Source: Paracoccaceae bacterium (GTDB taxonomy: Bacteria > Pseudomonadota > Alphaproteobacteria > Rhodobacterales > Rhodobacteraceae). From it: a DNA stretch of 45,174 nucleotides. The stretch spans positions 1-45,174 of the forward strand of contig CACDPV010000011.1 of NCBI GenBank assembly GCA_902554885.1, written 5' to 3'. The stretch's first letter is position 1; every line of letters begins with the position of its first letter. Of the stretch, positions 6,697 through 13,965 are shown piece after piece. Below the pieces are notes generated by a model that worked only from the letters and a program-made list of their open reading frames with translations, ran no database searches and had not been told where the DNA came from. The translations under genes were made by a program, and so were the position numbers.

Positions 6697-6773
6697 CGCG
6701 GGGTGGAGCAGCCAGGTAGCTCGTCAGGCTCATAACCTGAAGGTCAGAGGTTCAAATCCTCTCCCCGCAACCA
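6697..6773 (+). tRNA. Initiator tRNA-fMet (CAU)
   Basis: A 77-nt cloverleaf CGCGGGG...CCCCGCA with encoded CCA. The unpaired C1-A72 top of the acceptor stem marks it as an initiator tRNA; the anticodon CAT lies in loop CTCATAA at about 6731-6733. It closes the rRNA operon. Its last 38 bp (6736-6773) are repeated three more times downstream as partial copies, so this gene is the probable integration site of the following island. Confidence 0.98.
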
Positions 6774-6841
6774 ACTCATTGATAATAAAAAACTTTTACC
6801 TTACAGTTCGAGTCTAGTCTGTAAAAGTCTAGATTTTTGCC
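6774..6841 (+). repeat. Module left end, copy 1 (with possible terminator)
   Basis: This sequence directly after tRNA-fMet recurs with a few differences at 11284-11350, directly after the third tRNA fragment. It contains ACTTTTAC 6792-6799 and its complement GTAAAAGT 6821-6828, followed by a TTTTT run at 6834, so it may end transcription of the rRNA operon. The 21-nt loop makes the terminator reading uncertain. The repetition itself is plain. Confidence 0.75.
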
Positions 6842-6872
6842 GCAGCTAACATCTGTGTGATTTGAATTAAGG

Positions 6873-7094
6873 TTAATCGTGAAATTTTACTTTGAATACC
6901 TCGCTGACTTTTTTATTGAATACTCTCGCAATTAAAAAAGCCAATTCGAGTGTCGGATAGTACTTTGCCTTTTCTATTGCAACGATCGTTTGGCGAGTTA
7001 CTCCAACTTTACTTGCCAAATCACTCTGTGTCATTTCATTAGAGTTAAAGCGCAGGCTTCGAATATTATTAGTTATAGTTGGTTTCGTTGACAT
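6873..7094 (-). CDS. Small Xre-family transcriptional regulator
   Basis: A 73-residue protein made almost entirely of a helix-turn-helix domain of the Cro/C1 type (about residues 20-45, core MTQSDLASKVGVTRQTI). Such stand-alone small regulators usually repress their own operon. It starts with ATG one base after the stop codon of the upstream membrane protein gene, so the two are almost certainly co-transcribed and translationally coupled. A small Xre regulator next to a membrane protein with a DERDKKI segment is a recurrent pair in bacteria, of unclear function. It is cargo of island module 1, so it could also control element genes. Confidence 0.85.
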   Translation of the reverse strand: MSTKPTITNNIRSLRFNSNEMTQSDLASKVGVTRQTIVAIEKAKYYPTLELAFLIARVFNKKVSEVFKVKFHD

Positions 7095-7095
7095 C

Positions 7096-7557
7096 TTAAA
7101 TACTCGTGCGATAACGAGCTAATTTTGCTAATTCACCAAGCAAACCTCCTAAAGAGAAACAGAACATCAAAATTACTAAGCAATCTACTACTTCGTAGCC
7201 GAAGTTTAGACCAAGAACCAATGTAATGAACCCAGCACCAGAAAAGAAAACTGTAATTTTATGACCAGTGCTTGCAATTTTTTTATCTCTTTCATCCGCT
7301 ATAAAGTTGTTGTCGCTTTCGCCAAAAATAACATTTTCTAAAATAGAAAATATAATCGTACCAAATATGGTAAAAATTATACCAGCAACAAGAGACACGA
7401 CGATAATCCACAAAATTGTTTCAGCCCATGTTTGAATAGCGTTTGGACTATCCATCAAGCCGTTTAGGTAAAGGCTCCTCACTTCGACGATTATCCAAAT
7501 ATTTATAATAATCCCTATAATGATTTGGAGGACGGTATTTTTTTCTTCATGCGACAA
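7096..7557 (-). CDS. Four-helix membrane protein paired with Xre regulator
   Basis: A 153-residue protein with four hydrophobic segments (about residues 9-25, 46-75, 103-120 and 124-142) and a charged cytoplasmic-type loop containing DERDKKIASTGHK, which resembles the DUF2178-like group of small membrane proteins. The start is TTG at 7557: a clear GGAG ribosome binding site lies eight bases upstream and no suitable ATG exists nearby. It precedes the Xre gene in a two-gene operon. The function is not known; a membrane sensor or immunity role for the adjacent regulator is conceivable but not shown. Confidence 0.75.
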   Translation of the reverse strand: MSHEEKNTVLQIIIGIIINIWIIVEVRSLYLNGLMDSPNAIQTWAETILWIIVVSLVAGIIFTIFGTIIFSILENVIFGESDNNFIADERDKKIASTGHKITVFFSGAGFITLVLGLNFGYEVVDCLVILMFCFSLGGLLGELAKLARYRTSI

Positions 7558-11283: not shown

Positions 11284-11350
11284 ACTCTTTGATAATAAGA
11301 AACTTTTACCTAATAGTTCGAGTCTAGTCTATAAAAGTCTAGATTTTTGG
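11284..11350 (+). repeat. Module left end, copy 2
   Basis: The sequence aligns directly with 6774-6841 (shared segments GTTCGAGTCTAGTCT and AAAAGTCTAGATTTTTG), with roughly six or seven differences. It begins module 3 just as copy 1 begins module 1. Confidence 0.85.
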
Positions 11351-11483
11351 CATTACTTTTCCAAGTCAATGAATAACCGATCTGTAAAAGCTACTGAGGC
11401 ATTATAGAAACCACCTGCCGCCAAACCACTGCGCAATAGGTGGCTTCCTGATGATGATCCAAGGCCAAGAGTAGATGTTTGTC

Positions 11484-13733
11484 TCAACTAGTTTTCTGAC
11501 ACCAGAACTGATACATGCCAGCAAAGGCTCTTGGATTGGCCTCTTCATATGCTTGCCATTTATCCAAATCGTAAGGATCGCCATTGTCCTTATTTGTTTT
11601 CTCAAAGTGTGATATAATGTTTGGTGAGCCAAAGCCACAAAACTTTAGCCCTAGCCTATCTAGATGGTCCTTTATTTGAGGAATAGTGAACCTGTGCTCT
11701 TGGACATGGAAAAGAAGATCCCTCAGTTCACTAAGACTGTAAAAATCAGGAAATCTCAAAACCTGCTTATGATGACCTTTATCAGATTCTATGATCATAT
11801 TGCGAAAAGACCTCATTTCTGCATTACTCGATCCAATACCTAGTTCTCTTGTTTCCTGCCTAATTTTAACAATATGCAGTCTAGCTAATTCACTATATAA
11901 TCCAATATTCATAAGGCCACCTGGTTTTAGGCAATCTGTTAATACTTTCCATCCTGCCATTGGGCTATCCATATGATGCAAAACACCACCACTTCCAATG
12001 ATATCAAATTTTTTGTTAAGCTTTCCTAAGTCTAAAATGTCAGCTTGCATGTATTCTATATTTCCAATACGCAATTCTTCTGTTTTGCGTTTTGCATAAG
12101 CTAAGCTTGATAGACTGAGGTCGATAGCTAATACTTTTGAACCTTGAAACCTAGCTGCAGTTCCTATTGAATGCTGACCTGTGCCGCAGCCTGCAATTAA
12201 TATCTCTGGCTTTTTGACTGCAGTAATACTATTTTCGTAAACTTTGAGTTTAATTTGATCGACTAAATTTGAGATTAAATATGGTGTTGACGCAATTCCT
12301 AAGTTGACCCATCTTGGATATGGGCTTTCCTCATATTGGGCTCTCACCTCTGATGAGACTCTATCAGTGATTTCCTCAAGTACAGTAAGTTGTTTTTTTA
12401 GTTTTTCTTCCTGATTTGGTTCTTCAATCTGACGAGAATAAACCTCTGCAATATCGTCTGTTACGGCTAATAAGTTACACCAATCATACTGATGAAGCGC
12501 TTTATAGGAAGCTAGTGATAATAACGCCTGTGGGGTTGGTTGCTCATTATTTTTAATAGATTTTTTTATACTGGCTTCTAATGAGTGCAGTATTTTTTCT
12601 TCTTCCGCAGTATGATTGTAAATGTACTCATTGGTGAAGCACTGTAATGCTAAAGCCGATTGGAAGCCTATTAGCTCTGGCGATGCCTCTTTTATAGATG
12701 AAATATTTGAGAGAATAGAACGCCTTAGGTTTTTGAGTAGTTTCTCGAGTTCTACATCAGGAAGTGGGCAAACACTCATTAGCTTCAGTAACAAGGGAAG
12801 CTCATTGATGTCTGATATAACATTTAGAAGGCTTTCTATTACGTCAGCATCAGCTAGTTGAAGATGCTTTCGCAGAGTTGGTTCCAACTTTAAAAGACTG
12901 ATAGTTGCTTTGGCAATATCTTTTGGCCTTACGTATGTTGCTTTGTCGAGTAGAGAAAAAATTGTCTTTTGCAAATCTCTATTTGGCTTAGTAAAGATTA
13001 TACCTGTGAGAGCATTGCCCATGTTGTAATAGGCTTCGGTCAGATCAGGTTTGAGTGAGAGCGCTTTGTGATAAGCCTCTAGTGCCTCGTATAGCTTACC
13101 TTGTTGTCTAAACGCATTACCCATGTTTTTAAGTGCTTGAACATTTTTAGGGTCTATCGAGACTACTTTTTGAAATGCAACGAGTGCTTCGTCCAATTTT
13201 CCAGTTTGAGCAGCTGCTGCTCCCAGTAAATTCCAAAGGGCCAGACTTTTAGAATATCGTTTTGTCAATATCTGAGTTTCTTCAAAAACTCGTTTCAATT
13301 TTTTTTGGTTGTAAAGATTAAATAAACTTTGTAGCTGCTCTTTTGGTAAATCTTGAGAATTTGATTTTTGGTAAGGGGACGATCTAAGCTGTTCTTCTAG
13401 CTTATCAAACCCATCGCCTTTTGCACCGTTGTTTTTGGCTTGATCAAATACAGCTTTAGCATCAGTTATACGATTTAGTTTAATTAAGGCATCAATATAA
13501 CTCAGCCAGAACTGAACGATGCTTGGATTAGCCTCTAAAGCAGTCTTAAAGAATGGAAGAGACTCATTAAATTTACCAACACCAACGGCAAGCACACCCA
13601 TATTGTGATTGGCATCAGGATTTTTGGGGTTAGCTTTTAAAATAGCCGTATAATAACGGTCAGCCTCCTGAAGCTTACCAGCCTTATGAGCCTCAATGCC
13701 CTTTTGTAATGCCTGATCTAGTGTAAGTTCCAT
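11484..13733 (-). CDS. TPR-repeat protein with C-terminal SAM methyltransferase domain
   Basis: A protein of 749 residues when started at ATG 13733. The N-terminal part carries tetratricopeptide repeats (residues 1 to about 90, and again about 145-260, with phases such as PKNVQALKNMGNAFRQQGK). A middle helical region of unknown role follows. A class I SAM-dependent methyltransferase domain lies at about 500-620, with motif I IAGCGTGQ near 511-518 and an acidic end of strand 2 (AIDLS). The substrate is unknown; similar TPR-methyltransferases occur in hypervariable islands of marine bacteria, often near surface-glycan genes. The frame extends upstream to 13886, but those codons lie in the shared right-end repeat, and the pseudogene at 8103 also starts with MELTL, so 13733 is preferred. 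No strong ribosome binding site is visible. Confidence 0.85.
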   Translation of the reverse strand: MELTLDQALQKGIEAHKAGKLQEADRYYTAILKANPKNPDANHNMGVLAVGVGKFNESLPFFKTALEANPSIVQFWLSYIDALIKLNRITDAKAVFDQAKNNGAKGDGFDKLEEQLRSSPYQKSNSQDLPKEQLQSLFNLYNQKKLKRVFEETQILTKRYSKSLALWNLLGAAAAQTGKLDEALVAFQKVVSIDPKNVQALKNMGNAFRQQGKLYEALEAYHKALSLKPDLTEAYYNMGNALTGIIFTKPNRDLQKTIFSLLDKATYVRPKDIAKATISLLKLEPTLRKHLQLADADVIESLLNVISDINELPLLLKLMSVCPLPDVELEKLLKNLRRSILSNISSIKEASPELIGFQSALALQCFTNEYIYNHTAEEEKILHSLEASIKKSIKNNEQPTPQALLSLASYKALHQYDWCNLLAVTDDIAEVYSRQIEEPNQEEKLKKQLTVLEEITDRVSSEVRAQYEESPYPRWVNLGIASTPYLISNLVDQIKLKVYENSITAVKKPEILIAGCGTGQHSIGTAARFQGSKVLAIDLSLSSLAYAKRKTEELRIGNIEYMQADILDLGKLNKKFDIIGSGGVLHHMDSPMAGWKVLTDCLKPGGLMNIGLYSELARLHIVKIRQETRELGIGSSNAEMRSFRNMIIESDKGHHKQVLRFPDFYSLSELRDLLFHVQEHRFTIPQIKDHLDRLGLKFCGFGSPNIISHFEKTNKDNGDPYDLDKWQAYEEANPRAFAGMYQFWCQKTS

Positions 13734-13856
13734 GGCTACTTTTGAATTAAAACTACGCAACCTATTAAATAGTCTAGTTTCTAAACCAGAGGAAGGCTGT
13801 TCATGTGAAGGTTTATTAAATAATCTTACTATTAAACTAACAACGCACCGTATTGC

Positions 13857-13965
13857 GCCAGTTAGGTATGTGCCTAGTAAACCCACCCCATCGCTAAGTC
13901 ATTGTTTTTATTTAAATCGGACAATAACCTGAAGGTCAGAGGTTCAAATCCTCTCCCCGCAACCA
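13857..13965 (+). repeat. Module right end, copy 2, including tRNA-fMet fragment
   Basis: The sequence pairs with 7707-7815 over 109 bp. Its final 38 bp (13928-13965) match the tRNA-fMet end exactly, and the match to the intact tRNA extends four bases further 5' (ATAA). It marks the outer edge of the island, 13 bp before the matB stop codon. Confidence 0.92.

Follow-up and report, generated by a model that had tools for sequence, protein, structure and literature searches.

Tandem modules at a tRNA-fMet gene are framed by arms matching the attachment sites of phages with a CRP-3/HMO-2011-type integrase

Our study reports on three small tandem modules that follow the initiator tRNA gene (tRNA-fMet) beside an rRNA operon in a Paracoccaceae bacterium (assembly GCA_902554885.1, contig CACDPV010000011.1, positions 6,697 to 13,965; the whole 45,174-bp stretch analysed is referred to as the window). 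Every module is framed by two arms set around a 38-bp tRNA core, one of about 65 bp (D) lying right after one tRNA fragment and one of about 75 bp (U) lying right before the next. They match the arms of the attachment site (attP) of phages with a CRP-3/HMO-2011-type integrase, whose attachment (att) sites are directed to the same tRNA. We consider it probable, at roughly 60%, that the modules are integrase-less cassettes framed by the two halves of such an attP and placed by the integrase of an infecting phage.

Results

The last 38 bp of tRNA-fMet occur four times on the forward strand (6736-6773, 7778-7815, 11246-11283 and 13928-13965), as a reading of the DNA from its letters and open frames had reported (the sequence-only reading hereafter); three copies are identical across the 38 bp, and that at 11246-11283 carries one change (37/38). 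The sole complete tRNA-fMet in the window, identified by ARAGORN and Rfam, occupies 6697-6773 on the forward strand, and its last 38 bp are the core shared with attP. A search with the tRNA against the whole assembly of this organism (1.46 Mb, estimated 53% complete) matched these four places and no others. The cores set the limits of module 1 (6774-7815, 1042 bp), module 2 (7816-11283, 3468 bp) and module 3 (11284-13965, 2682 bp), with the copies at 7778-7815 and 11246-11283 forming the boundaries between modules 1 and 2 and modules 2 and 3. The open frame of the host gene matB starts 13 bp past the last core (13928-13965), which we read as the original end of the tRNA, displaced. Two further repeat families accompany the cores: the sequence after the first core (6774-6839) recurs at 11284-11349 (family D1, 94% over 104 bp, core included), and that before the second core (7706-7777) recurs at 13856-13927 (family D2, 93% over 111 bp, core included). 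Modules 1 and 3 thus have both ends in common, and the ends of module 2 differ.

The origin of these ends was addressed with two profiles made from phage attP arms only and holding no module sequence: R1 from 21 U arms (alignment A1) and R2 from 20 D arms (alignment A2). The arms were chosen by eye as resembling those of the viral contig L073 (23 phage att sites of 41, other arm types being left unused); L332 and CRP-3 (L335) were excluded from both alignments, and L091 from A2 as well. Because 10 (R1) and 13 (R2) core bases were included, part of each score and the adjacency of matches to tRNA fragments are built in. Each profile gives three matches in the window, one per corresponding module end, with the next best at E 0.33 for R1 and E 1 for R2, so that all six ends are matched, those of module 2 most weakly. 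All lie on the forward strand. In module 1 the D arm (6774-6838) is matched by R2 at 6762-6838 (E 5.5e-15) and, with the core, by blastn at 95-96% to L073 and L087, while its U arm (7704-7777) is matched by R1 at 7704-7787 (E 9.4e-19) and has 97.2% identity to the arm of each of these two phages, equal to the identity between the phages themselves. The arms of module 3 score nearly as well (D arm 11284-11348, R2 11272-11348, E 3.9e-13; U arm 13852-13927, R1 13852-13937, E 3.5e-16). In module 2 the U arm (11181-11245) is matched by R1 at 11181-11255 (E 2e-9) and the D arm (7816-7879), the weakest of the six ends, by R2 at 7804-7879 (E 3e-6). Past 13965 there is no R2 match, which is what a displaced host end would give.

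Searches of the IMG/VR database place these arms in their phage context. A scan with 33 exact core bases returned 36 contigs, of which 31 carry the fragment without a tRNA 5' half; in genome contigs the 5' half is missing at 20 of the 116 cores listed (at least 116 such loci in total), a further 8 of which lie too close to an end for a decision. These counts do not support the view of the sequence-only reading that the initiator tRNA is an uncommon target. On contigs L073 and L087 the order U-core-D is uninterrupted and lies between open frames, with 95-97% identity to the ends of module 1 and 92-96% to those of module 3, core included (blastn comparisons of the window modules with phages used alignments above 50 bp, and those of genus modules with phages alignments of at least 60 bp). 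The two contigs have tyrosine integrases that belong to one family (98% mutual identity over 350 residues; assigned on L073 through Pfam and PHROGs) and L087 carries a DnaB-like helicase; the gene order of integrase, att and helicase is that of CRP-212, while the DNA polymerase with partial DnaJ domain that marks HMO-2011-type phages is not on these short contigs. The closest cultured relatives by integrase are the HMO-2011-type Roseobacter phages CRP-235 (45.5%), CRP-212 (41.6%) and CRP-3 (40.1%), each with an att stretch resembling that of L073 (71-87% over 53-149 bp). Across the 31 loci with relatives of the integrase, a tRNA-fMet att site lies 0.9-2.4 kb from the integrase match in every one. 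The cited passages of PMC6918029 describe a CRP-3 core that overlaps the 3' end of the tRNA-Met(CAT) gene, and integration at that end in strain FZCC0040 shown by sequencing and PCR. The sequence-only reading had seen in the repeats the marks of tyrosine recombinases at a tRNA 3' end, and the match of the arms to the attP of CRP-3-like integrase phages bears this out.

The ends of module 2 point to other phages of the group. Its right end is 82% identical to L070, L077 and L085 over 11206-11298, core included, and its left end is 80% identical to a module of the related genome G209, itself 83% identical to L070 (184 bp, core included); global identities of 37-43% between the module 2 U arm and phage arms compare unequal lengths and were not used. 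The right end of a module in a further genome of the genus (G204) is 85% identical to L333, L331, L311 and CRP-212 over 72 bp, core included. Separate phage subtypes thus appear, from these sequence matches, to have served separate modules. By eye in alignment A2, the D arms contain short direct repeats whose letters covary between phage subtypes, the version in modules 1 and 3 (6813-6838 and 11323-11348) being that of L073; these repeats may be arm-binding sites of the integrase.

In the 16 genomes of the genus R1 gives nine matches at E<1e-4, each of them at a tRNA-fMet fragment, together with two weaker matches; the arm is present at 9 of the 10 genus cores that lack a 5' half. The exception lies in G199:C68 (L300, 10073-10115), where a tRNA-fMet fragment has another version of the core and no phage U arm, and where the genome's own tRNA differs; this fragment is either an old insertion or part of a contaminant contig. 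Among 394 genomes of the family, R1 at E<=1e-4 recovers this genome and a weak match in G019 (24.1 bits, E 6.9e-5), for which both a complete tRNA and a second core are absent from the 15 kb read. A weak match in G164:C84 (E 0.003), with no tRNA fragment in its stretch, was taken as false, and one in G207:C4 (L349, 1304-1469, E 0.005) marks a decayed U-core-D junction beside a tetratricopeptide-repeat (TPR) gene, away from the contig with tRNA-fMet. As controls for R2 we used seven tRNA-fMet loci without a known module (L291, L292, L294, L296, L297, L298 and L299), six of which give no match at E<=1; L297 scores 10.0 bits.

The tables comparing genomes of the genus, drawn up at E<0.01 or, for att features, at E<1, reveal comparable arrays, different cargo or an unoccupied site in its different species. 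A complete tRNA-fMet is present in 11 of the 16 genus assemblies; arms after it are clear in this genome and in G207 and less well supported in G204 and G209. In G207, a close relative (matB 95%), a D arm follows the tRNA and a U-core unit precedes matB, on two contigs. Six modules are bounded on both sides, the three described here and others of 2776 bp (G209:C50), 3060 bp (G211:C49) and 2896 bp (G204:C1), spanning 1.0-3.5 kb, with the ends of the G204 module the weakest. Cargo in the other arrays comprises a TPR-methyltransferase (G207), a TPR-sulfotransferase (G209, G211) and a TPR protein (G209). The empty site anticipated by the sequence-only reading is found in G199, where the tRNA is followed by 61 bp and then by matB homology; this is a distant species (matB 77%), and no empty site was found within the same species. 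We call only this site clean, because in G209:C4 what may be the remnant of a D arm is present (R2 17.1 bits, E 0.0015) and matB there is only partial. G198 has the same first bases after the tRNA as G199, but about 2.4 kb with a major facilitator superfamily gene precede matB. The gene pair of module 1 recurs in two genomes: in G205 it lies beside tRNA-fMet, where neither arms nor a second core are present, and in G201 it is on a stretch without a tRNA-fMet match; these pairs could equally be older insertions or have been placed independently.

Two further loci were seen in the same comparison. In L289 (G211:C6, 57-2516) most of matB is gone and a TPR-sulfotransferase gene occupies its place, immediately before the malonyl-CoA decarboxylase gene. 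In L303 (G208:C25, 5302-13173) a 391-aa integrase gene accompanies the core of another tRNA at 6652-6695, repeated at 13130-13173, and the genes between these cores, named from their frames, are sugar-type isomerase, LacI-like, tripartite-transporter-like and aldolase-like, with no integrase; this locus may show the same tendency to tandem arrays at another tRNA.

Family searches of the window proteins found no integrase in the three modules, in agreement with the sequence-only reading. A tyrosine recombinase encoded elsewhere in the genome, the source which that reading had looked to, did not emerge either: the Phage_integrase family (PF00589) has no match in this assembly and is positive in 14 of 14 control genomes. 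This absence is weak evidence, as about half of the genome is missing and even a gene of the XerC/XerD type was not found. Integrases of the L073 type were absent at E<=1e-20 from the 394 family genomes, a set with two genomes of this genus and no known positive, so that the empty result is uninformative by itself; at 30 genus loci that match Phage_integrase, the sequence nearest to the L073 type has 24% identity (E 7e-6).

Module 1 holds, on the reverse strand, a 73-aa HTH_3 (Xre-type) regulator (6873-7094; Pfam) and a 153-aa protein with hydrophobic stretches (7096-7557) that has no match in Pfam, PHROGs, NCBIfam or PADLOC. Module 2 carries four features on the forward strand: the start remnant of a TPR gene with an in-frame stop (8103-8242), which is 82% identical to the first part of the gene in module 3 and forms an inverted pair with it; a PhnD-like binding protein of the phosphate/phosphite/phosphonate type (8337-9203; Pfam, TIGR01098 above cut-off), which falls below the PhnD equivalog cut-off (TIGR03431) and whose nearest solved structures are PhnD and PtxB; a PhnC ATPase (9200-9994; TIGR02315 above cut-off); and a PhnE permease (9966-10796; TIGR01097 above cut-off). 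Module 3 is occupied by a TPR-methyltransferase on the reverse strand (800-aa open frame, 11484-13886; Pfam) that probably starts at the ATG at 13733, since the full open frame enters the U arm. This gene is under purifying selection, with dN/dS of 0.25 and 0.26 against two homologues in G211 (dS 1.05 and 0.70). Against PHROGs the sole matches of the proteins of modules 1 to 3 are to a generic HTH regulator and, for PhnE, to a family without assigned function. Known defence cargo was considered and rejected, PADLOC matches being limited to HTH, TPR and methyltransferase-domain proteins.

The first 285 bp of module 2 and the 140-bp stop-bearing TPR start are 80-82% identical to a G209 module, and its last 325 bp are 73% identical to the right end of another. 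This similarity suggests that module 2 is a TPR module in which phnDCE took the place of the gene body, and that the shell persists while the cargo changes. The cargo, described as unrelated in the sequence-only reading, is so in part, modules 2 and 3 both being tied to TPR-gene modules. TPR genes with a start strongly conserved at the DNA level occur at several places in this genome and the genus, inside and outside modules (G000:C3 at about 76.6-79.7 kb and G000:C15 at about 0.6-1.8 kb in this genome, and 8103-8242 and 13594-13733 in the window).

The modules have matches in nine viral records, all confined to att sites, and a distant blastn search of 6774-13978 against 50,697 records gave two matches, one to the att region of CRP-212 and one of 78 bp to an Enterococcus phage within phnC. 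Two other vehicles were tried and rejected: packaged satellites, as no relative of the module 3 protein turned up in a scan of viral contigs, and a gene transfer agent, as GTA_TIM (PF13547) has no match in the 16 genus genomes (1 of 14 controls was positive).

Discussion

Our data suggest a model for the growth of the array. A CRP-3/HMO-2011-type phage infecting the host would bring its integrase, which would recombine a circular cassette, through its attP, with the 3' end of tRNA-fMet or with any core of the array. The tRNA would be restored at every insertion, repeated events would build the tandem array, and cargo would be swapped inside the arm-bearing shells. The proposal of the sequence-only reading that the cargo might be mobilised in trans is upheld in so far as an outside recombinase is the best source of the insertions; the mobilisation itself is presumed.

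Several observations weigh against the model. Cassette mobility, with action in trans, circular forms, the order of events and cargo exchange, is what we infer, and no circle, excision or transfer was observed. As no L073-type integrase was found in the searched genomes, the helper must arrive by infection, and in the cited passages the CRP-3 subgroup is among the least abundant of its group and mostly polar (PMC9038755) and lysogeny is rare for phages of slow-growing marine bacteria (PMC6918029); both disfavour frequent action. A probe of viral contigs with a single module protein revealed no cassette cargo. At its left end, module 2 has an arm of only 49-58% identity to single phage D arms, which makes this the least certain end.

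The main rival, which we judge unlikely, holds that the modules are scars of collapsed prophages: phages would have integrated repeatedly, lost nearly all but their two ends and had other genes inserted between attL and attR. Cultured relatives of these phages have genomes of 53-55 kb. The arms are genuine phage sequence, and two modules in G211 retain part of a phage gene by the core, as a collapsed prophage would, their junctions keeping 162-222 bp of phage sequence that runs into the neighbouring gene. Such a history would nevertheless require a deletion plus a gain of intact cargo each time, and all six doubly bounded modules kept both ends within 1.0-3.5 kb (G204 the weakest case). Comparison by blastn with the phage loci and nine viral records gives att matches only, and no other phage gene was recognised, PHROGs giving only the two matches named above.

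A second alternative is that these are ordinary tRNA-island cassettes placed by another recombinase, from an integrative element or of the XerC/XerD type, the arms being a site common to many integrases that target tRNA-fMet. This tRNA is indeed commonly targeted by elements without these arms, and the integrase-bearing element of G208 at another tRNA has a similar core-side motif (R1 E 0.014-0.027). The likeness seen here spans both arms, beyond a motif; R1 gives no match stronger than E 0.02 in the 80 same-core loci searched among at least 116, and nothing at E<=1e-4 in 392 of the 394 family genomes, and we regard this explanation as quite improbable. Decayed tRNA duplications or an assembly artefact can be given almost no weight, even for a contig of a metagenome-assembled genome beside an rRNA operon, because phage-like arms rather than decaying tRNA 5' halves lie upstream of the cores, the separately assembled G207 has the same arms after its tRNA and before matB, and G209 and G211 bear arrays of their own.

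Placement of integrase-less cassettes by an infecting phage may belong to a wider scheme, which we offer tentatively. In a phage-powered cassette system tRNA-fMet would act like the attI site of an integron, any DNA between attP arms could be a cassette, and infections would add, remove and reshuffle the modules. If so, the host lineage would use a phage enzyme as a gene-capture machine, with arm subtypes pairing cassettes to phage subtypes. Placement by a phage integrase would in itself tie infection directly to host gene gain, for example of phosphonate-type uptake. The wider HMO-2011-type group is described as dominant in the ocean in the cited part of PMC9038755. Cassette islands linked to tRNA genes are already known and account for part of the differences in gene content among streamlined marine bacteria; the cited passages on them name no placing enzyme (PMC4119200, PMC7771536, PMC10872708). 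The new part is the phage arms and the candidate helper, the integrase of this phage type. Among the open-licence PMC papers listed by our searches, no title or abstract describes cassettes with such phage attP arms, a scope outside which most subscription papers and all preprints fall.

Comparison with known systems highlights what is shared and what differs. The additive flexible genomic islands of Alteromonas, Ca. Actinomarinales and Methylophilaceae, as portrayed in the passages cited from PMC4119200, PMC7771536 and PMC10872708, have cassettes at a tRNA with direct repeats of its 3' end and variable, useful cargo that includes transporters. Here too, a direct repeat of the tRNA end closes each cassette, but the cassettes bear the attP arms of a named phage type. 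The HMO-2011-type phages CRP-3, CRP-212 and CRP-235 share core, arms and target tRNA with the modules, which contain neither the integrase nor the remainder of the phage genome: the attL/attR arms are present, and family and blastn searches find no integrase, replication or structural genes between the ends.

The phage satellites, namely phage-inducible chromosomal islands (PICI), P4-like elements, PICI-like elements (PLE) and phage-inducible chromosomal minimalist islands (PICMI), and the tycheposons are likewise small cargo elements at tRNA or other att sites, possibly dependent on phages, in the cited passages of PMC11389934 and PMC10872708. The modules, at 1.0-3.5 kb, carry no integrase, replication or capsid-interference gene (Pfam, PHROGs, NCBIfam and PADLOC give no match in the window modules to an integrase of their own or to replication or packaging-interference genes of the satellite type), and their dependence would concern the integration step only. 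Tycheposons are given there as tRNA-bordered elements of 4-200 kb with their own tyrosine recombinase (PMC10872708), which the modules lack. Also comparable are the clusters of attC sites lacking integron-integrases (CALINs) and the miniature inverted-repeat transposable elements (MITEs) treated in the cited part of PMC11389934, where enzyme-less hitchers are a recognised class: these too have no enzyme and borrow their ends from an autonomous element, and CALINs are also arrayed. In our modules the proposed lender is a phage tyrosine integrase, and the ends make up a whole attP rather than attC sites or inverted repeats.

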